Shown here in pieces: positions 613-27,868 of a stretch of DNA of 28,978 nt. Where the stretch lies: positions 1-28,978 of IMG/VR virus record IMGVR_UViG_3300021513_000162, one strand, 5' to 3'. Under the pieces are notes generated by a model. That model saw nothing but the letters and a program-made list of their open reading frames with translations. It had not been told where the DNA came from and ran no database searches. This DNA is from a virus. How positions within the stretch are numbered: the stretch's first letter is position 1; the number at the start of each line of letters is the position of its first letter. A program made the translations under genes and the position numbers.

Positions 613-644
613 GATTAGAGTGAATTATTTTGGAGTTAAACATT

Positions 645-3600
645 ATGAATATATTTTTTTCTTATGATAATGATTTTTGTGAATTGATGAGTTCTCTTGA
701 AAAAAAATATGGAAAAAAGTTGTTTGAACTAGATGGTATAGGAAAAAAACAATTAGATATAAACGATTTTAGTAAACAGTTTTTTACTAATAGAACTACA
801 ACTGCGGATGTTTCTATAGATGCCAATTCGAATATAACGCAGTCAGATATTATAACATATAATGTAGAATTACCAAAACCTTTTTTTAGATTAAATGCTT
901 ATTTTATTCTTTGGAAAAAATTAAAACAACTATATGGCCAAGAAGAGGCGAATAGAATAATAGAAATGCAGCTTAGTGGAGATGTTTATATTAATGATTT
1001 TCACGGATTACAGGCCCCGTATTGTTTTAATTATTCTACATATGATATAGCTTTGTTGGGACTTCCTTTTATAACAAAAATAAAAAGTATTCCTCCAAAA
1101 CATTTATATTCGTTTAAATCACAATTAGAACAGTTTGTTGTATATGCTTCAAATTCTACATTAGGGGCGTGTTTGTATAAAAATCAAGAACTTATAGTAA
1201 AAGAAAATAATATAATAAAAGTAATTAAAGTAAAAGATTTTGTATCTAAATATGATTTGAATAATAAGTTTGTTTTTAATTTACAAGAATGGGAAAACTC
1301 TGACAATATAAATAATGTAAAAATATGGGAAAATGGTAAATTTGTAGAACTAAAAAGAGTTTTTAGGCGAAGATATAATAGAAATATTTATAAGATAGAA
1401 ACACATTCTGGAAAGAAGTGTTTTGTTTCAGAAGATCATGTATTTAAAGTTTTATTTAGGGGAAGAGAATTAGAGATAAAAGCTAAAGATTTAAGGATAT
1501 ATGATACTGTATTTAATACTTTTATTTCAAAGTTGCCTATAGATAAAAACAGTTTTGATTATCAAATGGGACAATTTATAGGTATAGTAAATGGAGATGG
1601 TTATATAGGTAAGAAAGAAGTAATAAGTATTTCTATAAATTATAAAGAAAAATTTATAATTGATTTTTTAGATAACTTTTTATCTATATATTTTAATATG
1701 AAAGGAAAATTACTAAAAGGTAATAAATGTTATCAATATAATATATATTCAACTAAATTTAGAAATAAAATAATAAATATGTATTTTAAAGGAAGTATTA
1801 TAGGAAAAAATAAGTATGCATATGTTGATGAAGAATCTATTGAATTTAAACTTGGTTATATAGATGGTTTATTGGTGACTGATGGTAGTTATAAAGATGG
1901 TCATACATTGTCTTTGATTAGCGAGAAAACTATAGAAAATGTTATAAATATTTTATATAGTATTGGGTTTAAAAAATTAAATATTCACAAGTATGATGAT
2001 ATACGTACAAATACTCGTTGTACTAGTTATATAATTAAGATACCAGTTAAAATAAATGATTATCTAAATTTGACTTTGATAAAAAGAAAAAATGCTATAA
2101 AAAATAATAATAGTAATAAAACTAAAGAAATATTTTATACAGGGTTGCATGCTTATTATAATGCTAATAATAACAAAATAGCAAGGAATATAGTAACAAC
2201 AGGGAATATTACGCATAAACGAAAAAGTTTATATAGAAGTTTGACTACTGATGTAATAGTAAATATAGAGATTATCCCAAACGATGATGATTATGTTTAT
2301 GAAGTAGAGACAAGTACGCATTGGTATTCTGCGGGTGGTATTTTAACTCATAACTGTGGTCTTGCGGATGTGTTTATTACAACAAGTTACTATATAGATA
2401 AAATGATAAGAACGGGGGTAGATGCAAAATTTAAATTAAACAATGAAGAAGATGTTTGGACATATGTAAAAGAAAATATAGTATCTTTAATTTATACTTT
2501 AAATCAGCCATTTAGAGGTGGCCATCAGTGTGTAACAGAGGATACTGAAATTTTAACTGTTGGTGGTTTTAAAAAATATAACGAATTATCTGTAGGTGAA
2601 AATATTTATACTTGGAACAATGGTGTATTAAACATTCAACCAATTCAAAAATTAAATATTTATGACTATGATGGGATTATGCATGAATATAAAGGAAGAG
2701 ATACTATACAAATTGTTACACCAGGACATAATGTATTACATAAAAAAAACAATTCGTCAAAATATATATTAACAAAGTCTTCTAAGTTAGTGGATAAAAA
2801 AACACCGTTAAACTATCCAGTAGCAATGTTAGAAGATAACAGAAAAGATTATGACATTTCAGATAGTATGCTTCAACTTTTAACTTTTATTTTAACAGAT
2901 GGTATTTTAGATTTGGATAATACGCGCGGGGAACGAGGAAGAATACAAATATTTAAATCACCAAAACGATGGGGTAATAAACAACTTATAAATGTTTTAA
3001 ATAAAAATAATATAGTTTATACTGTGTCAGTTAGAAAGTCAAATTTTGGTGGAATAGTAAACGTTTATAATATATCAACGAATAGTTCTCAAAAATTATT
3101 AAAACTTATAAATAGAACAAAAAAAGAATTACCTAAATGGTTTTTTAAATTAAGCAGAAGACAAGCAAAAATAGTAATAGACACTTGGGCAAAACTAGGC
3201 GGTAATATAGGTGAAAATAATTATAATAGACAAAAATTACAATGTGATAATTATTTAATAGCAGATCAGATTCAACACCTTTGTTTTTTATCTGGGAAAG
3301 GAAGTAGTATAGAATCCCGTACAATATCTAATAATAAACAAGAAATAATATACGTAAAACCTTATAGTAGAACAAATAAAAGTGCTTCTATAAAAAATAA
3401 AATACACTATAAAGGTAAGGTGTTTTGTCCAACAACTGAAGATGGAGTAGTAGTATTTCGTAAGAATGGTAAAATATTTATTTCAGGAAATAGTGCATTT
3501 ACAAATATATCTATTTTTGATGATAATTTTTTAAATGAGTTAGTTCCAGAATATAAATTTATAAACGAAAAAGGAGAACAGGTTATTCCAAAGTTTGAAA

Positions 3601-4703
3601 CAGTTAAAAAAACACAAGAGATATTTTTAGATGTTATGAACGAAGAGCTTACTAGGACGCCTGTTACTTTTCCAGTTACTACAGCATGTATATCTGTTGA
3701 TGAAGATAATAATCCAAAAGACCAAAAGTTTATTAAAATGATAGCTGAAAAAAATAAACAATTTGGTTTTATTAATATCTACTGTGGGAAAACAAGTACT
3801 TTAAGTTCTTGCTGTAGACTCAGATCAGATGCTGATAATGAATACTTCAATGCTTTTGGTTCAGGTAGTGTGAAAATTGGTTCGCTTGGAGTTGTTACGA
3901 CAAACCTTCCAAGACTTGCTATTAAATCAAAAACAAAAGAAAAATTTTTAGAAAATTTAAGAGAATTAGTAATAGATGTTGCACGTATAAATAATGCTAA
4001 ACGTCATATAATAAAAAAACGAATAGAGGTTGGGGTTTCTCCTTTATATAGTTTAGGTTTTATGTCTATAGATAAACAGTATTCGACATTTGGTATTACT
4101 GGTTTGAACGAAGCGATAGAGCTGTTAGGGTATGATATATTAGAACAAGATGGACAACAGCTCGTATTGGATATGCTTGAAATAATTAATAAAACAAATG
4201 ATAAATTACAAAAACAGTATAATGCTCCACATAATTGTGAACAGGTACCGGCTGAAAATAGCGGAATAAAACTATCTAAAAAAGATAAATTACTTAAATA
4301 TACAGAAGATTCTTTATTTTATAGTAATCAGTTTATTCCACTTATTAAAAACGCAGATATGTTAGATAGAATAAAATTACAAGGAATGTTTGATTCTAAG
4401 TTCAGTGGCGGGGCTATTCTTCATTTAAACATAGAAGAACAAATAGTTGATACACAAAAAATAATTGATTTAATAAATATTTGTGCAAAAATGGGTGTGG
4501 TTTATTGGGCAGTTAATTATAATTTACAAATGTGTGAAGCTAATCATATGTCTGTAGGTGCGAATGGAAAATGTCCTGTTTGTGGTAAACCTATAAAGGA
4601 AAATTTTACAAGGGTGGTTGGATTTCTTACTAATATTAAAAATTGGAATTCAGTGAGAAGAAATGTAGATTATCCAAATAGGCAGTTTTATAAAAATATA
4701 TAA
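645..4703 (+). CDS. nrdD: Anaerobic ribonucleoside-triphosphate reductase NrdD, precursor with two inteins
   Basis: Class III ribonucleotide reductase, making dNTPs from NTPs under anoxia with NrdG. The 1352-aa precursor contains two inteins (1170-2354 and 2529-3491); joining the exteins gives about 636 aa, a normal NrdD length. Extein landmarks: an N-terminal APYC cysteine region before intein 1, RGGHQ|SAFTN around intein 2 (NrdD consensus GGQSPFTN), a CCRLR active-site segment, and a C-terminal zinc module with C-x3-H then CPVCG. The glycyl-radical motif RVVGFL has its Gly at nt 4620-4622, followed by WNSVRR. No N-terminal ATP-cone is apparent, so allosteric activity control may be absent. 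Start: ATG 645 is chosen over an upstream in-frame TTG at 630 because GGAG at 632-635 lies 9 nt before it. It follows nrdG by 104 nt. Confidence 0.93.
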   Translation: MNIFFSYDNDFCELMSSLEKKYGKKLFELDGIGKKQLDINDFSKQFFTNRTTTADVSIDANSNITQSDIITYNVELPKPFFRLNAYFILWKKLKQLYGQEEANRIIEMQLSGDVYINDFHGLQAPYCFNYSTYDIALLGLPFITKIKSIPPKHLYSFKSQLEQFVVYASNSTLGACLYKNQELIVKENNIIKVIKVKDFVSKYDLNNKFVFNLQEWENSDNINNVKIWENGKFVELKRVFRRRYNRNIYKIETHSGKKCFVSEDHVFKVLFRGRELEIKAKDLRIYDTVFNTFISKLPIDKNSFDYQMGQFIGIVNGDGYIGKKEVISISINYKEKFIIDFLDNFLSIYFNMKGKLLKGNKCYQYNIYSTKFRNKIINMYFKGSIIGKNKYAYVDEESIEFKLGYIDGLLVTDGSYKDGHTLSLISEKTIENVINILYSIGFKKLNIHKYDDIRTNTRCTSYIIKIPVKINDYLNLTLIKRKNAIKNNNSNKTKEIFYTGLHAYYNANNNKIARNIVTTGNITHKRKSLYRSLTTDVIVNIEIIPNDDDYVYEVETSTHWYSAGGILTHNCGLADVFITTSYYIDKMIRTGVDAKFKLNNEEDVWTYVKENIVSLIYTLNQPFRGGHQCVTEDTEILTVGGFKKYNELSVGENIYTWNNGVLNIQPIQKLNIYDYDGIMHEYKGRDTIQIVTPGHNVLHKKNNSSKYILTKSSKLVDKKTPLNYPVAMLEDNRKDYDISDSMLQLLTFILTDGILDLDNTRGERGRIQIFKSPKRWGNKQLINVLNKNNIVYTVSVRKSNFGGIVNVYNISTNSSQKLLKLINRTKKELPKWFFKLSRRQAKIVIDTWAKLGGNIGENNYNRQKLQCDNYLIADQIQHLCFLSGKGSSIESRTISNNKQEIIYVKPYSRTNKSASIKNKIHYKGKVFCPTTEDGVVVFRKNGKIFISGNSAFTNISIFDDNFLNELVPEYKFINEKGEQVIPKFETVKKTQEIFLDVMNEELTRTPVTFPVTTACISVDEDNNPKDQKFIKMIAEKNKQFGFINIYCGKTSTLSSCCRLRSDADNEYFNAFGSGSVKIGSLGVVTTNLPRLAIKSKTKEKFLENLRELVIDVARINNAKRHIIKKRIEVGVSPLYSLGFMSIDKQYSTFGITGLNEAIELLGYDILEQDGQQLVLDMLEIINKTNDKLQKQYNAPHNCEQVPAENSGIKLSKKDKLLKYTEDSLFYSNQFIPLIKNADMLDRIKLQGMFDSKFSGGAILHLNIEEQIVDTQKIIDLINICAKMGVVYWAVNYNLQMCEANHMSVGANGKCPVCGKPIKENFTRVVGFLTNIKNWNSVRRNVDYPNRQFYKNI
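1170..2354 (+). mobile_element. Intein 1 of NrdD (LAGLIDADG type)
   Basis: A 395-aa in-frame insertion starting at Cys (nt 1170) and ending in THN before Cys+1 (nt 2355). Splicing block B is visible as an SEDH segment; block F/G as VETSTHWYSAGGILTHN. Two LAGLIDADG-like motifs lie inside: GIVNGDGYIG and IDGLLVTDGSY. Both keep the acidic residue, so the endonuclease may be active. Block A (CLYKNQELIV) is divergent but keeps Cys1. Splicing joins NSTLGA to CGLADVF in NrdD. Confidence 0.93.
2529..3491 (+). mobile_element. Intein 2 of NrdD (degenerate LAGLIDADG, GN/S junction)
   Basis: A 321-aa insertion from Cys1 (nt 2529, CVTEDTEILTVGGF) to FISGN before Ser+1 (nt 3492). Block B is VTPGHN. The penultimate residue is Gly, not the usual His, as in some phage inteins ending in a GN/S junction. 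The first LAGLIDADG-like motif FILTDGIL keeps Asp. The second region, WAKLGGNIG, has Gly where the catalytic Asp is expected, which suggests weakened nuclease activity. It interrupts the conserved NrdD motif RGGHQ|SAFTN. Confidence 0.93.
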
Positions 4704-6442: not shown

Positions 6443-7390
6443 TTAGTCTTTGGAATATGTTATCCACAAAAGTTTACTTTGATTTCTTATAGGTATAAAT
6501 TTTGGTTCGGGGCTAAGTGAAAGTTTATAAGAAGTGCTAGATATTTTGTTTTTAGTTACTTTTGAAGAACCATAAGAAGATATAATTTTAGTTTCAAAAT
6601 AAGGCATATCACTACAATTAAGAGGATCGTATTGTTTTCTTGTCATCGGGTTTCTATATATTGCTGTTGTGTTAAAAAACTTATTAACTTTTATTGATAT
6701 TTCGTGTATATTGTCTACTATTTTTGCACTAGAGGTGGTTATTACTTGACTTGTTTTAGAAAAGGAAAGTTCTGACATAGCATTTAATAAATAATTTAAA
6801 TATAATTTATCAAAATTAAGAAATTTTCTTGGGATGTGTTTATCTTTTCCCGATCTAAATTGTAATAAAAAATCGTATAAGTCTTTATTATAGGTATTAA
6901 GCAAGAGGCCTTTATTATTTATTGATATAAAATTTTTTATTTTTAATAGGTTTAATGTTTCTGCTATAATTTTTAGTTTATTTTTTTTGTTTTTGAATGA
7001 AGTAATATTTTTTTCTTTCAATTCCCCGCATTTAATAAAGTATCCTATTAGTTTTAAAATTAAACAGGTATCAAACATAGATTCTTTGTGTATTATTGGG
7101 TTTAATTTATAGCCAGAGTAATCATATTTTGGTAATGATAAAATGTTTGTGTTTTTAATATTTTTTACTTTTTTTATTTTTTTGTTTTTTGTAAGAAGCT
7201 TTGTTTCAGGAGATAGCGGTGAGTGGTTTATTATATAAACATGTTTTAATTTATTATTAGGTTTGATATTAAGAATAGTTGATAATATTAGCTTGTTGTT
7301 TACTATTCCATATATTTTTTGTCCAATGAATAAATTTTGAATAGTATTCCAACCGTTATCAGTTAATATATATGAGTGTTTTAGTATCAT
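6443..7390 (-). CDS. Free-standing intein-derived LAGLIDADG-like ORF (probably degenerate)
   Basis: A 315-aa basic, Lys/Asn/Ile-rich protein on the opposite strand from its neighbours. The N-terminus (YILTDNGWNTIQNLFIGQ, residues 7-24) reads like an intein block A to early Hint segment but without the leading Cys. INHSPLSPETK resembles block B. IGYFIKCGEL and NAMSELSF fall where the two LAGLIDADG motifs should be, with the catalytic acid or glycine altered. The C-terminus (FIPIRNQSKLLWITY) resembles the end of a Hint domain but lacks the terminal Asn and nucleophile. It therefore looks like a stand-alone homing ORF descended from an intein. No strong SD precedes the ATG. The family call is fairly sure; loss of activity is inferred. 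Confidence 0.72.
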   Translation of the reverse strand: MILKHSYILTDNGWNTIQNLFIGQKIYGIVNNKLILSTILNIKPNNKLKHVYIINHSPLSPETKLLTKNKKIKKVKNIKNTNILSLPKYDYSGYKLNPIIHKESMFDTCLILKLIGYFIKCGELKEKNITSFKNKKNKLKIIAETLNLLKIKNFISINNKGLLLNTYNKDLYDFLLQFRSGKDKHIPRKFLNFDKLYLNYLLNAMSELSFSKTSQVITTSSAKIVDNIHEISIKVNKFFNTTAIYRNPMTRKQYDPLNCSDMPYFETKIISSYGSSKVTKNKISSTSYKLSLSPEPKFIPIRNQSKLLWITYSKD

Positions 7391-7489: not shown

Positions 7490-9613
7490 ATGGCTGATTG
7501 GTATGTAGATTTTACTTTACCTTCTAATGGGACAGGGACAACGTATTCTGGTGCTTGGAATGTATTTACGGCTACTGAGGGTGCTAATGTAAATGATGGA
7601 GATTCTATATGGTTTAGAAGAAATGATCCTGGCAATGACCAAAAATTGATAACAATTAAGGCTGGAGATATTAAGTATATAGGTTGGCCTAAAGAAGGTG
7701 ATGATCTTTATGATGTTAGGCCGTCTGATCCAAGGGCTTTGTGGGATGCAGACTCTTCAAATTATGTTTATCAAAGACGTAGTATTGGTGATGGGACTGT
7801 TCATGCTTTGAAGTCAGATAATACTTTTTATAGGTGGTATTTTTATAATTATTATAGTAGTAACAACTATCAAAGGACAATAGAAATAATATCTGAAAGT
7901 AATGTTAGTGTTTATCATTCTTATATATATATTTATAAGACTTCTAGTATTAATAATGATTATTCTAAGGTTTTAAGAGTAGAAAATAGTGATAATATAT
8001 ATTTTAAAGATACAACCATTAGGGGTGCTGCATCGGCTAGGTATATTTATAATCAGTTATTTAAATTATATAATTCAATTATAACTTTTGACGACTGTAT
8101 ATTTAGGACACAATCAAACACTGATGCTTCTGAAACTCATGCGGATAGTATTAATGAGGTGTCTTATATAAACAACTCTACTTTATATTTTAATAATTGT
8201 GTTTTTAATAGTTATGTTTTAAGGAATTATACCTCTAATACGACATCAAAGGCTTATTGTTGTATTGCATATAATAGTACTTTTCATTTTAATAATACGC
8301 GTTTGGAGCATAATAGGACTGATACTGTTAGTAATAATATTTTTAGTATGAGTCCACATTATTGGTTTTATTTGAGTAATTGTACTGTAAATCTTATTAA
8401 TAATTGTAGATACCGTGCTTGGTGTGATATGGTAGCTGGTTTTTTTGTTACTGACGGTAGTAATATTAATTGCTCGGATTTTCAAGTAGATACAGAAAGT
8501 TCTTCTGTTAACCAGAATGTGATTTTTGATTTGTGGGATATAGGTAATGTTACTATTAGTGGTGTTTCTGGGTCTGTTAATTATTATACTAATGTAGAAA
8601 ATAAAAATTATTTTATTGGCCTTAATAATTCAACATCTTTTGAGTATTTTACAGATAAGATAAGTATAACGGACGTTTCCACGTATGTTGGTGATGTTAT
8701 TGAAAAACTTAGATATAATCAGGCTGATAACCAAATAATTAATATTAGTGATGATACTACGTTTAGAGATTTTAGTGTTTTTTTTGGAACTCCAAGGGAA
8801 CTTAATATAGATAATTCTGAAATAGGTGGGATTGGTTTATATTACAGATCGTATAATACTAGTTGTGCTTGGTATGGTTCTTATTATAGTTATAAGAATT
8901 TAAAAGTTATCAATTCGACAATAACGAAGTATAATGCTTTATATTTGTCTTCATCTTATGTCAATCCAAGTGTAGATGCTATAATTTATAATTGTGAAAG
9001 TTTAGGAAATAATCAACTTTTTGATGATAATTCAGGCAGTTCTTGTAAGGTTAATCTTAAAATATTGAGGAATAGGGGTTTTTCTTCTGTTGGGTCTCTT
9101 GGTTGTTATTCTAATAAAATTATTAGTTCGTCTTTTAATATGGGTGAGCTAAATACTTATAAGTATTTTTATGAAGGTTATATTTCAAACAGTGAAATTT
9201 ATCGTACAAATGGAGCAAATTATTCGATAAAAGCTTTTAAAGAAACATCGAATGGTTCTTTATGTATTTCTGAGCTTGGGGCTGAAACTATTTGGATTAG
9301 GTTGCCTGCTGAAGGCACTTATATGATAACTGCTTATATGTTGTATACTTGTACTTCTTGTACTTTACTTCTGTCTGATGTTTACTTTGAGGTAGATTAT
9401 TTTGACAGTTCTGGTTTTTCTCATCGTATAGTAAGTGATAGTCTGGTTAATGATACGACAAGTTCTTGGTCAGGAAGTGGAACTAAAATAAAACTTACAT
9501 GTTCTGTTACTGTTTCTTCTGCTCAATTTTGTCCTGTAAGATTTTATATTCCAGGGTATTATGAGAATTTATTTGTTTATATTGATCCAAAGGTTGATGT
9601 TACTGAGGTGTAG
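7490..9613 (+). CDS. Putative tail spike / right-handed beta-helix structural protein
   Basis: A 707-aa protein, very rich in Ser, Asn, Tyr and Ile. It is dominated by short alternating segments ending in N/D-rich turns (for example SDNIYFKDTTIRG, NSTLYFNNCVFNS, NCTVNLINNC), the texture of a pectate-lyase-like parallel beta-helix spanning about residues 100-560. The last 110 residues look like a separate beta-sandwich. Such proteins form phage tail spikes or bind host glycans. No catalytic residues are recognised. Start: ATG 7490 (MADWYVDF) with GAGGG 5-6 nt upstream is preferred to the GTG at 7478. It opens a four-gene fibre block. Confidence 0.72.
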   Translation: MADWYVDFTLPSNGTGTTYSGAWNVFTATEGANVNDGDSIWFRRNDPGNDQKLITIKAGDIKYIGWPKEGDDLYDVRPSDPRALWDADSSNYVYQRRSIGDGTVHALKSDNTFYRWYFYNYYSSNNYQRTIEIISESNVSVYHSYIYIYKTSSINNDYSKVLRVENSDNIYFKDTTIRGAASARYIYNQLFKLYNSIITFDDCIFRTQSNTDASETHADSINEVSYINNSTLYFNNCVFNSYVLRNYTSNTTSKAYCCIAYNSTFHFNNTRLEHNRTDTVSNNIFSMSPHYWFYLSNCTVNLINNCRYRAWCDMVAGFFVTDGSNINCSDFQVDTESSSVNQNVIFDLWDIGNVTISGVSGSVNYYTNVENKNYFIGLNNSTSFEYFTDKISITDVSTYVGDVIEKLRYNQADNQIINISDDTTFRDFSVFFGTPRELNIDNSEIGGIGLYYRSYNTSCAWYGSYYSYKNLKVINSTITKYNALYLSSSYVNPSVDAIIYNCESLGNNQLFDDNSGSSCKVNLKILRNRGFSSVGSLGCYSNKIISSSFNMGELNTYKYFYEGYISNSEIYRTNGANYSIKAFKETSNGSLCISELGAETIWIRLPAEGTYMITAYMLYTCTSCTLLLSDVYFEVDYFDSSGFSHRIVSDSLVNDTTSSWSGSGTKIKLTCSVTVSSAQFCPVRFYIPGYYENLFVYIDPKVDVTEV

Positions 9614-12795: not shown

Positions 12796-14547
12796 ATGAT
12801 AAATATAGTTAAGCCTAAAGTTTTTATTGAAGAATTTGATGCAGAGTATATTATAAGAAAGATAGAAAGAGCAGCAAGAACTTGCTATAAGACAGAAGGA
12901 AGTAAAGCTCCTTTAGGACAGCTGTTGGATAAACGTCTTTTGAAAACTTCTGATAGGGCAGAATTTTGGAATATATATCATGATGGTATTATAGATCCAA
13001 AACTTTTAAAAACGATATTAGCGAATGTTCATTCCAGTGTTTTAGAACATTGTACAATTAGTGTTGTTATACGTACTTGTAGAAGTATGACTCATGAATT
13101 GGTAAGACATCGTGTAGGTGTAGCCTATTCTCAAGAATGTGTTTCTGGTGATACTTTAATTAGAAAAAATAAAACAATTAAAGAGCTATTTGATAGAGAT
13201 AGTATTCCTAATGGTAGGGCGGCAAATAAGAATATTAATTTAAAAAGTGTAACCGATAGTGGGAAAATAGTTCCAAACAAAATAGAAGAAATATTTTATA
13301 AAGGTAAAGCTGTTGTATACGAATTAACAACATCTCTTGGTTATAAAATTAAATCGACTTTGAATCACAGGTTTCAAAACGAAAATGGGGAATTTAAAAC
13401 TTTATCAGAGCTTAATGTTGGCGATAGTGTAATGTTAAATGGGAGGCCCTGTTTAATTAAGGTGTCTGATGAGCAACTAGAGCAAATGTATATAGAAGAA
13501 GGTCTTGCTCCGGCCGAGATTGCGGATGTTTTGTCTGTACCCTATAGGTCTGTAATAAATAAATTACGCAAGTTGGGTATTTTTGTTAGAAAGATGAATG
13601 ACAAGAATAAAGAAAAATATAATAAAAATCACACAGATGAATCTTATAAAAAAATGAGAGCAACGATAAAAAAACAGTATAGTGAGGGTGGTAGGGTTGT
13701 TTGGAATAAAGGTCTCAAAGAAGGCGAACACATAAGTGTAGATAAACAGGCCGTGTTTTTAAGAAATAATCATCATAATAATGGATATGGTGTTAATAAT
13801 AGTAATTGGAGGGGCGGCAATATTACTCGTATAGGTGGTTACGCTAGAACACAGAGAGAAAACAAATTAGGGAAATGTGAGTTATGTGGCGATATGGCGA
13901 AAGAAAGACATCATATAGATAGAGATCCAACTAATACAGATGGTAGTAATATTCTTTGTGTATGTGTTAATTGCCATAGAAAACTTCATAAAGGTTGGTG
14001 GGTAGGTACTAAAACGCACCCTGATACAATTATTTCTATTACTAAAGTTGGTGTGGAAGATGTATACGATTTAAAAATGAAATCCCCATTTCATAATTAT
14101 ATAGCTAATGGTTTTGTAGTACACAACAGCAGTAGATATTGTAATTATAGTAAAGATAAGTTTGATAATAAGGTAACTATGTTGAAACCGTATTTTTATA
14201 AAAATGAAGAACAATATAATATTTGGAAAAAGTATGCAGAAATATCAGCAAGGGGTTATTTTGAATTATTAAAAATAGCAACTACAGAAGAGGCGCGAGA
14301 GTTATTGCCTAATTCTACAAAAACGGAAATTTCAGTAACATACAATATTAATGCTTGGAGACATTTTTTTAATTTAAGAGCTTCGCAAAAAGCACATCCA
14401 GAAATACGAAGAGTGGCTATGGCTTTATTGTTAGAGTTTGCTCATAGGATGCCTGTTTTATTTGATGATATTAAAAGTAGACATTTGCGAAATTTTGAAT
14501 ATTTTCCAGGCATAGAAGATGTAGAATTAGAGTATATTACTATTTAA
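12796..14547 (+). CDS. thyX: Flavin-dependent thymidylate synthase ThyX, precursor with one intein
   Basis: Makes dTMP from dUMP using FAD and methylenetetrahydrofolate, complementing the class III reductase in dNTP supply. The precursor is 583 aa; removing the 330-aa intein (13138-14127) leaves 253 aa, typical of ThyX. The ThyX signature is split by the intein: RHRVGVAYSQE before it and SSRYCNYSKDKF after it. Further support comes from HSSVLEH near residue 80 and the C-terminal RASQKAHPEIRRVA segment. SD TTTGGAG lies about 9 nt before the ATG at 12796. The gene starts a new cluster after the tail genes. Confidence 0.93.
   Translation: MINIVKPKVFIEEFDAEYIIRKIERAARTCYKTEGSKAPLGQLLDKRLLKTSDRAEFWNIYHDGIIDPKLLKTILANVHSSVLEHCTISVVIRTCRSMTHELVRHRVGVAYSQECVSGDTLIRKNKTIKELFDRDSIPNGRAANKNINLKSVTDSGKIVPNKIEEIFYKGKAVVYELTTSLGYKIKSTLNHRFQNENGEFKTLSELNVGDSVMLNGRPCLIKVSDEQLEQMYIEEGLAPAEIADVLSVPYRSVINKLRKLGIFVRKMNDKNKEKYNKNHTDESYKKMRATIKKQYSEGGRVVWNKGLKEGEHISVDKQAVFLRNNHHNNGYGVNNSNWRGGNITRIGGYARTQRENKLGKCELCGDMAKERHHIDRDPTNTDGSNILCVCVNCHRKLHKGWWVGTKTHPDTIISITKVGVEDVYDLKMKSPFHNYIANGFVVHNSSRYCNYSKDKFDNKVTMLKPYFYKNEEQYNIWKKYAEISARGYFELLKIATTEEARELLPNSTKTEISVTYNINAWRHFFNLRASQKAHPEIRRVAMALLLEFAHRMPVLFDDIKSRHLRNFEYFPGIEDVELEYITI
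13138..14127 (+). mobile_element. Intein in ThyX carrying HTH, NUMOD3-like and HNH segments
   Basis: A 330-aa insertion from Cys1 (CVSGDTLIRKNKTIKELF) to FVVHN before Ser+1. Block B is STLNH and block F/G is SPFHNYIANGFVVHN. The inserted nuclease region is not LAGLIDADG. It shows a helix-turn-helix (APAEIADVLSVPYRSVINKL), a NUMOD3-like stretch ending in VWNKGLK, and an HNH domain with zinc ligands CELC, ERHHID and CVNCHRKLH. It interrupts the ThyX signature between QE and SSRY. Confidence 0.93.
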
Positions 14548-14584
14548 GGTGTAAAATTACGACCGTCGGGTGGGTAAGTCAAAG

Positions 14585-14716
14585 ATGGTAAGGAGATGTA
14601 AACTTTGTAATGGTTTAGTTTCAGTGAAAAGACTTTGAGGCGGAAAGTTGGTATATTTCTGCAGGGGCTGTAGAAAAATATTAGACGTTTCAAAAGTTGT
14701 TTTGAAAGAAAAATAA
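14585..14716 (+). pseudogene. Zinc-ribbon gene interrupted by an in-frame TGA (pseudogene or recoded)
   Basis: A single reading frame from ATG 14585 to TAA 14714-14716 encodes a 43-codon zinc ribbon: RRCKLCN (C5, C8), then YFCRGCRK (C26, C29), then a basic tail. Small Com-like zinc-ribbon proteins of this layout are frequent in phages. Codon 18 (14636-14638) is TGA, which separates the two CxxC pairs. The frame stays open and keeps the second CxxC after the TGA, so either the nonsense change is recent or TGA is read through. No convincing SD precedes the ATG; an in-frame GTG at 14570 is an alternative start. It fills the gap between thyX and the gene at 14732. Confidence 0.6.
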
Positions 14717-14731
14717 AGTGAGTATAAAAAA

Positions 14732-14950
14732 ATGTATAAGGAAACAGGTAGAATAAATATTAATGTTGCTGGTATAGTTTCTGATCTTGGTAGAAGAGAA
14801 GACGGAAGAGCATATATAGTTATAGATAATGAAACAATATATGTAAAGCACTCGTCTGTTTCTTTACTTAATAAGGTTAAACAAGGTCAGTATATAAAAA
14901 TGGATTGTTATATAGATTCTGGCAAGATTTTTGCAACAAATATTATATAA
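14732..14950 (+). CDS. Small OB-fold-like hypothetical protein (72 aa)
   Basis: The alternating beta pattern (INVAGIVSDLGRRED, AYIVIDNETIYVKHSS, YIKMDCYIDSGKIFATNII) resembles a short OB-fold or similar nucleic-acid-binding barrel, but no diagnostic motif proves it. A modest SD (GTGAG around 14719) lies about 10 nt before the ATG. It sits in a run of short phage genes between thyX and clpP. Function unknown. Confidence 0.65.
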   Translation: MYKETGRININVAGIVSDLGRREDGRAYIVIDNETIYVKHSSVSLLNKVKQGQYIKMDCYIDSGKIFATNII

Positions 14951-18240: not shown

Positions 18241-21084
18241 ATGGTAAATAATGAAATAATTAAAATCCAAGCAAATAACTTGATATATTTTTATAGGAAT
18301 CATCCCGTTATTGCTGCATATGATCTTCTCGGTGTTGAACTTGATGAAATTCAACGTATTATTTTTCGGGATATGTGGTTTAAAGATTATGTTATTGTTG
18401 TAGCCTGTCGTGGGTTAGGTAAAAGTTTTTTACAAGCTTTGTTGGCTACTTTAAGAGCTATGTTATATCCAGGTCATCGTGTTGGTCTTATTGGAAGTTC
18501 GTATAGACAGGCTAAGGTAATTTTTAGAGAAGTTGAGGATTTATATAATAAATCTGATATTTTTAAAGAAGCTACTTTACGGCCACCAATTAAAAGTACT
18601 GATATGTGCGAGATAAAGTTTAAATCTGCTGGTACATATTCTGCGTCAAGTATTCTTGCTATTCCTTTAGGTAATGACGGTTCTAAAATTAGAGGTCAAA
18701 GATTTTTTTCAATTTGTGTCTCTGGAGATACATTTATAAGATCTGAAAAAGGCCTTATTCTAATAAAGGATATAGTTTCTAGGTTAGATACAAAGATAGA
18801 AACTTTAAAAGGATTACATTACCCTACAAGGTATATTAGAAATCCTATAGGGCCAATGTATAAGATTACAACCTCTAAAGGTTTTGAAATAGCAGGTACT
18901 CCAGATCATCCATTATATTGTAATGTTAACAATAGATATAAATTTGTTCCAATTAATAAGTTAAGTGTTAATAATAAAGTAGTTATAAAAGCGTTTGATC
19001 CTAATATGTGGCCCGTTAAAAGTTATTATAAACCTAAATCTATTCATATTAAAGTAGGTCACAGTGCAGATACTTCAGTAACTACTCCTGACTTTGTGAC
19101 TGAAGACTTAGCTTTATTTTTAGGATTTATAGTGTCTGAAGGGCACATTAGGCAGCCAAGTACAATTCAGTTTGCAAATAAGGATATAGAAATAATTGAT
19201 ACTTATATGGCATTAGTTAGAGGGCTTTTTTCTAAAACACCAAATATAAGATATATTGTACCTCTTAAGTATGGAGAAGATAGCGGTTATTACGATACAC
19301 AGTTGAGTAGTGTTATTGTTCGTAAATATCTAGAAAATTTGGGATTGGACTATTGTTTATCTAAAGATAAAACTATACCTTTTTCAATTTTACAATCTCC
19401 TCTCCAGGTTATATGTGCTTTTTTAAAAGGATTGTTTGAAGGAGATGGCTGTATTCATAGAAATTATAAAGGAAGAAATAGACCAGTTATAACCTATACA
19501 AGTATTTCTTTAAAGCTTGTAAAGCAAATACAAGTATTATTAATTAATTTAGGTATTGTGTCTTATTTTAGAATTAATCGGCGTAGTGCTATATGTAAAC
19601 ATAACGATTATGTTTTGTCAATAACTGGGGAAGATGTATATAAATTTATGGATTTAATTGGGTTTGTATCTTCAAGAAAAAGTAATAAAATAAAGGAATT
19701 TAATAGAGATGGAAACTTTAAAGTAAAATTGAATAATGACGGGTATTTTATGGATAAAATAAAAACAATAGAATGTTTAGAAGATGATGTAAGTTATGAT
19801 TTTACAATACCAAAGTGTTGTTCGTTTATGTCGAATGGTTTTGTATCTCATAACTGTGCAGATGAATTTTGTCAGATACCTGAGCAAATATTTAATCTTG
19901 TTATCCGTCCGATGGCTATTACACAACACAGCCCAATGGAAAACGTAAAAAGAATGAGACGAAAAAAAGAATTAATGGAGCTTGGTATAGATGTAGAAGA
20001 TGATGTTTCTATTAATAAAATAATTATGACTTCATCGGGATTTTTTAAAGTCAACCATATGTGGAATCGAATGAAACATTATTGGAAAAAGATAGAATCT
20101 GGCGATAAAACTTATGCTGTCCATCAAGCGTCTTATACAGATTTATCTGAGGGATTTTTGAATCAAAGCAACATAGAAGAAGCTAGAGAAACAATGCCAA
20201 AAGCTTTGTTTGAAATGGAATATTGCGGAAAAATGATTTCTGATAGTGAGGGATTTTTTAAAGCATCTCTTATTGAGTCTTGTATTGCTAATAAAATTGA
20301 TAATTATTTTACTGTTGAGCTTGAAGGTAAAAAAGGTTTTGAATATATTATGGCTATTGACCCTGCAAGAACAAGCGATTCTTTTGCTATTTTAATTTTT
20401 AAGGCATGTGGCGCTGTTTTAAAACTTGTATATGCTGTCACATATACCGGAGTAAGTTCATTAAATACTGTTCACGAGATATTTAGATTGAGAGATAAAT
20501 TTAATTTAATAAGAATTGTTATGGATTCTCAAGGCGGCGGTCATAATATAAAAGATTTACTTGAGGCCGGCATAGATAATAATAAACCTATTTTAGATAT
20601 ATTAGATAAAGATAATTATGGGAGAGATGGGGACTTGATATTGCAGCTTTATAATCCAAGTCCTTCAAGTAACACAGATGCTAATTTTACTGCATTAGCT
20701 ATGTTAGAGAAAAAAGCTTTTTTGTTTCCTGGTCCACCTCAACAGGCTCTTGATGAGGAGGATGATTTATATGAGTATATAGGTTTATTGAAAAAACAGT
20801 TATTAAGTATAGTTGTAACTCAAAATCCAAATGGTACTTTAAACTTTAATACACAATCTTCTAGAGCCAAGAAGGATTTGTATTCTTGTTTTATAATGGG
20901 GTGTTGGGCGGCTAAACAATTAGAAAAAGAAAAAAACATTACAACTGAGCAAGAAAAAATATTATCGTATGGTGGTGTTATAAAAAATAGAACAGGTGAT
21001 GTTGGAAGTAGTGATTTTTATGTAGATAGAATAAATAATTTTGATGGGGTTTCTAGGCCATTAATTGTTCCAACTATATTGTAA
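18241..21084 (+). CDS. terL: Terminase large subunit, precursor with one intein
   Basis: ATP-driven DNA packaging motor and headful nuclease. The precursor is 947 aa; removing the 380-aa intein (18715-19854) leaves 567 aa, normal for TerL. Walker A is ACRGLGKS (55-62). Walker B is split by the intein: FFSI before it, CADEF after it (DE at precursor residues 541-542). Motif III is IMTSSG (about 596-601). RNase H-like nuclease acids are visible at D707 (MAIDPARTSDS) and D762 (IVMDSQGGG), with a likely third in KKDLYSC. The ATG is the only usable start after an in-frame TAG at 18196. It lacks an SD; a hairpin lies upstream (18206-18236). Confidence 0.95.
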   Translation: MVNNEIIKIQANNLIYFYRNHPVIAAYDLLGVELDEIQRIIFRDMWFKDYVIVVACRGLGKSFLQALLATLRAMLYPGHRVGLIGSSYRQAKVIFREVEDLYNKSDIFKEATLRPPIKSTDMCEIKFKSAGTYSASSILAIPLGNDGSKIRGQRFFSICVSGDTFIRSEKGLILIKDIVSRLDTKIETLKGLHYPTRYIRNPIGPMYKITTSKGFEIAGTPDHPLYCNVNNRYKFVPINKLSVNNKVVIKAFDPNMWPVKSYYKPKSIHIKVGHSADTSVTTPDFVTEDLALFLGFIVSEGHIRQPSTIQFANKDIEIIDTYMALVRGLFSKTPNIRYIVPLKYGEDSGYYDTQLSSVIVRKYLENLGLDYCLSKDKTIPFSILQSPLQVICAFLKGLFEGDGCIHRNYKGRNRPVITYTSISLKLVKQIQVLLINLGIVSYFRINRRSAICKHNDYVLSITGEDVYKFMDLIGFVSSRKSNKIKEFNRDGNFKVKLNNDGYFMDKIKTIECLEDDVSYDFTIPKCCSFMSNGFVSHNCADEFCQIPEQIFNLVIRPMAITQHSPMENVKRMRRKKELMELGIDVEDDVSINKIIMTSSGFFKVNHMWNRMKHYWKKIESGDKTYAVHQASYTDLSEGFLNQSNIEEARETMPKALFEMEYCGKMISDSEGFFKASLIESCIANKIDNYFTVELEGKKGFEYIMAIDPARTSDSFAILIFKACGAVLKLVYAVTYTGVSSLNTVHEIFRLRDKFNLIRIVMDSQGGGHNIKDLLEAGIDNNKPILDILDKDNYGRDGDLILQLYNPSPSSNTDANFTALAMLEKKAFLFPGPPQQALDEEDDLYEYIGLLKKQLLSIVVTQNPNGTLNFNTQSSRAKKDLYSCFIMGCWAAKQLEKEKNITTEQEKILSYGGVIKNRTGDVGSSDFYVDRINNFDGVSRPLIVPTIL
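18715..19854 (+). mobile_element. Intein in TerL (LAGLIDADG type)
   Basis: A 380-aa insertion from Cys1 (CVSGDTFIRSEKGLILIKD) to GFVSHN before Cys+1 (nt 19855). Block B is AGTPDHPLYC. The two LAGLIDADG motifs are FLGFIVSEGHI and LKGLFEGDGCI, both with acidic residues, so an active endonuclease is plausible. The insertion is exactly at Walker B (FFSI|CADEF), so an unspliced protein could not hydrolyse ATP. Confidence 0.94.
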
Positions 21085-27334: not shown

Positions 27335-27868
27335 TTATTGTAGCAAATAATAAAGAGAGGGCGGTAAAACAAGTTTTGTATTTTTATATTTTTTAATTTT
27401 ATTTTTTAAAGAAGAAATAATTTCATTTTTAATATAATGGAAAGTTTTGATGTCGTTTTTAAAACGTTTGATTCCAAGTTCGCAATAATCAGCCGGAAGC
27501 ATTGCTTTTATATTAATAAAACCATGTGGGTATGTTTGTGTAAAGTTGATTTTTATATTAAATAAATTGAAGATTGTTAACTTTGATATTTGAACAAAGT
27601 ATGGGATTCTTATTACTGTGTATCCCATTTTTTTGTATGTGTAGTCTTTTAAATTATCATTTAGTATGGTTTTACTAATTGAGTAGTGACGGTGTCCGTC
27701 AAATTCAATAATTAGTTTGAGTGTATCGTTTCTGTAGTCTGGTCTGTTTTTTATGTTTGAGTTTGGTACTTGTTTATCGTGTATAAATTGGTGATTTGGG
27801 AAAATTTGTTTTAGTATTTCGCCAAGCCTCTTTTCTGTTAGGTAGTTTTGTTTTGTAATTTTTTTCAT
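27335..27868 (-). CDS. Vsr/PD-(D/E)XK-like free-standing homing endonuclease
   Basis: A 177-aa basic protein on the minus strand between the capsid gene and its downstream neighbour. The core RPDYRNDTLKLIIEFDGHRHY (two adjoining parts: RPDY and IIEFDGHRHY) followed by KKMGYTVIRIPYFV matches the Vsr-like/EDxHD and DUF559 fold: acidic, Asp, then E-x-D-G-H-x-H. Free-standing nucleases of this type commonly sit next to conserved phage genes as selfish elements. The C-terminal 70 residues may form a DNA-recognition extension. A weak AAGAG SD precedes the ATG (27868). No operon partners. Confidence 0.78.
   Translation of the reverse strand: MKKITKQNYLTEKRLGEILKQIFPNHQFIHDKQVPNSNIKNRPDYRNDTLKLIIEFDGHRHYSISKTILNDNLKDYTYKKMGYTVIRIPYFVQISKLTIFNLFNIKINFTQTYPHGFINIKAMLPADYCELGIKRFKNDIKTFHYIKNEIISSLKNKIKKYKNTKLVLPPSLYYLLQ

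Follow-up and report, generated by a model that had tools for sequence, protein, structure and literature searches.

An in-frame UGA in a phage zinc-ribbon gene is a probable selenocysteine codon

We propose that a small bacteriophage gene encodes a zinc-ribbon selenoprotein, with selenocysteine (Sec) at residue 18 and with its synthesis depending on the Sec machinery of the host, and we put the probability of this reading at roughly 0.84. Bacteria, archaea and eukaryotes are known to have selenoproteins, as are some viruses that infect eukaryotes; no natural bacteriophage selenoprotein was found in the open-licence literature that was searched, which does not prove that there is none. The gene lies within a 28,978-base IMG/VR virus record with a G+C content of 29.9%, the whole of which is referred to here as the window, and in which a TerL and a head-maturation protease of the ClpP type are recognisable as phage features. 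The positions of the gene, its elements and its neighbours are given in Table 1.

Table 1. Positions of the zinc-ribbon gene, its recoding elements and the adjacent genes in the window
Feature	Position	Strand	Remarks
Dual-CxxC zinc-ribbon gene	14585..14716	+	43 residues; ATG 14585, TAA 14714-14716, UGA is codon 18
UGA codon, proposed selenocysteine, R-x-U motif	14636..14638	+	Kept in 3/3 distinct lineages; aligned to a YfgJ Cys; Cys scores best in NF041197 and PF07191
Candidate SECIS-type hairpin, UUUCUGCAG-GGG-CUGUAGAAA	14656..14676	+	Loop 14665-14667, at a spacing of 26 nt from the UGA
thyX with intein, upstream gene	12796..14547	+	Pfam Thy1 3.9e-34, Intein_splicing 4.1e-16
72-aa ORF, downstream neighbour	14732..14950	+	Synteny with L002 and L083

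A first-pass annotation of this DNA had described the gene by its coordinates, its in-frame TGA and its two CxxC pairs, all of which the translation, MVRRCKLCNGLVSVKRL*GGKLVYFCRGCRKILDVSKVVLKEK*, bears out: CKLC lies 5' and CRGC 3' of the TGA, both are in one frame, and this frame is interrupted by the single stop and open elsewhere. The hairpin is a part of the gene that the earlier description did not contain. With UGA taken as a stop the gene shrinks to a frame of 17 codons, and genes of this kind can thus be missed by gene callers. Family searches with the downstream neighbour gave no confident assignment. The window ThyX is a protein of 583 residues with a large insert, which Pfam calls an intein, and the ThyX proteins of the two related contigs described below have 253 residues and no insert.

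Orthologues of the gene were found in two further lineages. Contig L002 was recovered through the C-terminal part of ThyX (80% identity there) and contigs L083 and L084 through an HD-domain neighbour (67% identity there); the latter two are identical in the gene region and are therefore counted as one, so that the evidence base consists of only three distinct lineages, from separate contigs. The L002 gene (986-1117) has its ATG at 986 and a UGA at 1037-1039, that of L083/L084 (2964-3089) has its ATG at 2964 and a UGA at 3015-3017, and in both the UGA is codon 18, both CxxC pairs are present and the gene follows thyX, with the order thyX, zinc-ribbon gene and orthologue of the 72-aa ORF being common to them. 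With the UGA position scored as a match, the L002 protein, MVRRCKLCNSLVSLKRT*GGKVTHFCKGCRKILHASNVILKNK, is 72% identical to the window protein and the L083 protein, MIRRCKFCNSLVSVKRL*SGRIRYLCKRCKKILKVSEVVEK, is 66% identical to it. The arrangement R-x-UGA between two CxxC pairs (R16-x-U18) is present in all three lineages. A spacer of 37 nt (14548-14584) separates thyX from the zinc-ribbon gene in the window; in L002 and L083 the thyX stop and the start codon are one base apart, which suggests translational coupling there. The sequence upstream of thyX in L002 (L002:1-190) is richer in G+C and contains a strong inverted repeat, CCCCAACC...GGTTGGGG, which by eye is possibly a transposon end.

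The comparison of the three lineages shows protein-level constraint on both halves of the gene. In the three pairwise comparisons, which are not independent of one another, amino-acid changes were below the level obtained in a neutral simulation with uniform substitutions, both before the UGA (P 0.004, 0.013 and 0.026) and after it (P 0.003, 0.018 and 0.043). At fourfold-degenerate sites of the neighbouring genes the lineages are 30-78% identical, and a useless stop would therefore be expected to have mutated, or the second half of the gene to have decayed.

A scan of viral contigs with ThyX recovered one locus of this lineage among the 80 of 216 loci that were kept, a scan with the 72-aa protein recovered no relative from it, and scans with A2, the HD protein, TerL, a 71-aa protein and two DNA patterns placed it on the L002 and L083/L084 contigs only. 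Two DNA-pattern matches, L098 and L100, were rejected as relatives, being chance matches with broken translations. No further copy of the gene scored above threshold in a profile search of 84 loci, where weak rows were discounted as chance, no relative emerged from scans of genome contigs, and searches of phage and plasmid proteins with the ribbon gave matches that were all at E values of at least 0.4. No phage orthologue with cysteine was found in these searches.

The residue specified by the UGA was approached through family comparisons. When TGA is read as Cys, each of the three proteins has a match from residue 5 to residues 38-40 to the profile NF041197 ('dual CXXC motif small (seleno)protein'), with E values of 0.0049, 0.0087 and 0.0012 (17, 16.2 and 19.0 bits) for the window, L002 and L083, respectively, all of them below the curated cut-off of 40 bits, and none of ten Cys-preserving shuffles matches this profile. 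With Trp or Arg in place of Cys, L083 scores 14.8 bits and the window protein is no longer listed, and the same loss occurs for L002 with Trp, Gly, Arg or Ser. The zinc-ribbon family PF07191 (Zn_ribbon_6) likewise gives 18.5, 19.2 and 16.7 bits with Cys (window, L002 and L083), all short of its gathering cut-off of 25 bits, against 14.3-14.6 bits for the window protein with Trp, Arg or Gly and 14.0-14.1 bits for L002 with Trp or Arg; L083 with Trp is unlisted, and with Arg it matches a different stretch at 14.0 bits. Hence wherever Trp, Arg, Gly or Ser was tried at position 18, either some 4-5 bits or the whole match was lost. A six-frame search of the four phage records with NF041197 reported no match.

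Remote homology to YfgJ of Escherichia coli, a PF07191 protein whose structure has been solved, points to the same residue. The UGA position aligns with a Cys of YfgJ (phmmer E 1.3, with the alignment falling on its second ribbon), and C5, C8, C18 and C26 align with cysteines of that second ribbon at 24% identity. In a MAFFT alignment to the whole of YfgJ, C5 and C8 fall on the first ribbon and C18 falls on a different Cys, and alignment to the second ribbon alone, as well as phmmer, puts C18 on the Cys of KACGA. When the protein is modelled with Cys at position 18 (mean pLDDT 90.9, with three sequences), strands are predicted at residues 2-5, 11-16, 22-26, 31-33 and 38-41, and the YfgJ structure 2jne is the top structural row (VIA-align Z 4.6 over 42 residues, rmsd 2.0; next row 3.6), with model residues 1-43 placed on chain residues 30-71 in agreement with the second-ribbon alignment; Foldseek gives an E value of 0.75 for YfgJ. 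These comparisons are weak singly and agree in marking position 18 as a place for cysteine, which is the classical indication of a Cys/Sec pair, and we infer that the residue inserted at the UGA is Sec. C5, C8, C26 and C29 are presumed to be the zinc ligands. In the model residue 18 occupies the turn 17-21 between strands 11-16 and 22-26, distant in sequence from the Cys pairs, and that Sec18 might have a redox or metal-contact role beside the zinc site is a guess.

In each lineage the UGA is followed by a hairpin within the coding sequence. As set out in excerpts of a 2026 review of prokaryotic selenoproteins (PMC13188914), the bacterial SECIS model has a loop of 3-9 nt, an upper stem of 4-16 bp, 16-37 nt from the UGA to the loop, a G in the first two positions of the loop in the form N1 G[G/U]N N2 with N1 and N2 paired, and a minimum free energy of -7.5 kcal/mol or lower. 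The L002 hairpin is UUCUGCAA-GGG-UUGCAGAA and that of L083 is UACCUCU-GUA-AGAGGUG; for the window, L002 and L083 the loops are of 3 nt, the stems of 9, 8 and 7 bp, the spacings from UGA to loop 26, 26 and 22 nt, and the loop contexts G-GGG-C, A-GGG-U and U-GUA-A, which conform to the N1 G[G/U]N N2 pattern. All three phage hairpins thus resemble the excerpted model in their loop, stem and spacing; the energy limit is reached by the first two (-8.1 and -7.5 kcal/mol) and narrowly missed by L083 (-6.7 kcal/mol, or -7.3 by RNAfold).

The window and L002 hairpins are in the same register and differ by the replacement of one whole pair (G-C to A-U) and of one G-U by G-C. That of L083 is built from other bases and lies four nucleotides nearer the UGA, so evidence from covariation is confined to the comparison of the window with L002. 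When the codons were replaced by synonymous ones according to the codon usage of each record (20,000 samples each), a hairpin of this type and stability arose with P 0.00095, 0.00065 and 0.00025 for the window, L002 and L083, and in a looser form of the test (3,000 samples) with P 0.0013, 0 and 0.001. The window stem is built with two rare codons, TTC (about 11 of 340 Phe codons in the window) and TGC (about 10 of 135 Cys codons). The hairpin therefore exceeds the coding requirement of the protein. A search of positions 14560-14740 with Rfam gave no match to a SECIS family, the only hit being ES173 on the opposite strand at 18.6 bits as against a threshold of 90.

The combination of UGA, hairpin and open frame is confined to this gene in the records that were scanned. 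Among 3,352 TGA triplets on both strands of the window (887), the L002 record (478) and the 64.7-kb relative G001 (1,987), 17 are followed by a hairpin of the bacterial SECIS type at -6.7 kcal/mol or lower (2, 5 and 10, respectively), and when at least 12 codons from a start before the TGA and at least 15 open codons after it are required, exactly three remain, which are the orthologous UGA codons. The threshold of -6.7 is that of the weakest of the three hairpins and was fixed after it had been seen; two would pass at -7.5.

The proposed mechanism is as follows. Ribosomes would arrive at the UGA at codon 18, where the coding-sequence hairpin, with its loop 26 nt downstream, would recruit SelB and Sec-tRNA of the host, and insertion of Sec would compete with termination. 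Insertion would yield the 43-residue protein with its single zinc ribbon, and termination a 17-residue peptide carrying only one half of the zinc site. Neither SelB nor a tRNA-Sec above the cut-off was found in the four phage records, all of which may be fragments, and the host would thus supply the machinery, presumably SelA, SelB, SelC and SelD together; at E 0.001 both control searches gave noise (14 of 14 genomes), and at the cut-off they discriminated, recovering tRNA-Sec in 5 of 14 genomes and SelB in 2 of 14. We regard as doubtful the further idea that these phages use Sec decoding as a sensor of host and selenium, with the zinc-ribbon protein being completed only where the Sec machinery is active. 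If it were correct, a single UGA would make one step in phage development, or in nucleotide metabolism, depend on the selenium status of the host, the link to nucleotide metabolism being drawn from the position of the gene behind thyX.

Other explanations of the in-frame UGA differ in how it would be read or passed. The codon could be subject to programmed readthrough by an ordinary tRNA (that for Trp or another near-cognate), aided by the hairpin, such that the identity of the residue would be of little consequence and the proportion of 17-mer to 43-mer would be what counts. Such a scheme would account for the conserved UGA and the hairpin and for phage records in which Sec genes are absent at the cut-off, and it has a precedent in phage Q-beta, as excerpts of PMC8310308 indicate. 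It is, however, a less natural explanation of a hairpin that agrees with the bacterial SECIS model in its spacing and its G[G/U]N loop and of profiles, NF041197 and PF07191, that favour Cys over Trp, Arg, Gly or Ser, and half a zinc ribbon would be unlikely to be useful as a product; hence we consider ordinary readthrough quite unlikely. The first-pass annotation had also raised readthrough or recoding of the TGA, with Trp as the residue, and here the conserved codon and the constraint favour recoding, while the Cys-favouring scores, the SECIS-type hairpin and the use of 90 TGG codons as against no in-frame TGA in the 25 plus-strand genes of the window speak against Trp. A Trp or suppressor reading was likewise rejected on the lower family scores and the lack of a suitable tRNA: ARAGORN detected no tRNA in the window, and the tRNA with a UCA anticodon that had been suggested as a search target was found neither there nor in the relatives. 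That lack, together with the codon counts, also tells against a code in which UGA has a sense meaning throughout (code 4 or 25), be it that of the phage or of the host. All 27 window genes have TAA or TAG as their stop codon, and TGA likewise ends none of the 19 ORFs of the L002 record (L087), as a changed code would have it, despite its use in G001, where it ends 9 of 60 ORFs of at least 100 aa and 14 of 96 non-overlapping ORFs of at least 60 aa in a mechanical list that includes some spurious ORFs. Among the latter is the G001 ClpP gene, whose homologues stop with TAA within a few residues of that place. UGA therefore serves as an ordinary stop among these phages and its recoding is local, and we hold a change of code to be very improbable.

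A nonsense mutation, pseudogene or sequencing error would fit a lone in-frame stop in a frame that is open elsewhere, and a recent nonsense mutation or an error had indeed been offered as an explanation of the TGA. The alignment of orthologues, which had been suggested as a way to see whether codon 18 is Trp or Arg, has the UGA itself in all three lineages, on separate contigs, and the half beyond the stop is constrained, as is the half before it. This rules out mutation and error, and the probability that we leave to them is negligible. The hairpin might instead be an RNA operator or another regulatory element unrelated to recoding, with the UGA being passed by a frameshift pair, by bypass or by internal re-initiation. 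Zinc ribbons can bind RNA, and the ribbon may resemble Mu Com, for which the only comparison gave a weak match of one member to the Com family phrog_13819 (E 0.67). Both halves share one frame, and the second CxxC is lost in the +1 frame; a +1 frameshift at CTT-TGA was rejected for this loss, and the codon before the UGA is CTT, ACA or CTA across the three lineages. The codon that follows the UGA, TTG in the window, is replaced by GTT in L002 and by ATA in L083, which argues against re-initiation there. We give this group of explanations very little credence, and insertion of Sec by the host machinery is preferred to it.

Further features of the window and its relatives were recorded alongside the gene. 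The window TerL (18241-21084) has 947 residues and a large insert, which the 571-aa TerL ORF of L083 lacks, and it is about 30% identical to terminases of the Bacillus phage Slash group. A 1357-aa NrdD-like ORF (window 630-4703) by eye is apparently interrupted by inteins, and two minus-strand ORFs, 6443-7390 (315 aa) and 27335-27868 (177 aa), lie amid plus-strand late genes and have the appearance of intein or homing-type and small endonuclease genes. G001 encodes a full-length DnaK of 626 aa (L088:14955-16835), with about 60% identity to DnaK proteins from proteobacteria in plasmid records, and a 124-aa phage protein with an RF-1 (GGQ) release-factor domain (L089:12728-13102; Pfam E 2e-18). 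At L089:6941-9797 it carries a reverse transcriptase (RVT_1, 1.3e-14), an Rfam RT-17 RNA (8000-8081) and an adjoining 577-aa protein, an assembly that we take to resemble a diversity-generating retroelement.

If the reading proposed here is correct, the dependence of these phages on Sec machinery would mark their host as a Sec-decoding bacterium, it would show that selenoprotein genes travel with phages, and it would provide a 43-residue model of a Sec-containing zinc ribbon. What we rate as new is the type of genome, that of a phage, since the decoding is known and the protein stands near a family of bacterial selenoproteins that is already known. The words phage and virus are absent from the review (PMC13188914), and a tRNA-Sec gene is reported for Basilisk-like Bacillus phages in excerpts of PMC6145125. 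Viral selenoproteins are represented by the glutathione peroxidases of poxviruses, as excerpted from PMC8310308, and these resemble the present case in that a virus gene relies on the Sec insertion of its host. They differ in having a eukaryotic SECIS and in being host-acquired glutathione peroxidases, whereas the phage gene has a bacterial-type element and encodes a zinc ribbon. YfgJ differs from the single-ribbon phage protein in holding two ribbons within 71 aa and in having Cys rather than Sec. The NF041197 family (CxxC_Se_CxxC; hypothetical selenoprotein OS_HP3), which a table in the excerpts of PMC13188914 gives as a selenoprotein with the motif RxU, shares with the phage proteins a small size, two CxxC pairs, a single Sec, as proposed here, and the RxU motif, here R16-x-U18, and it differs in having been described from bacteria (an Olavius symbiont as reference, and Desulfosarcina widdelii) rather than from phage genomes.
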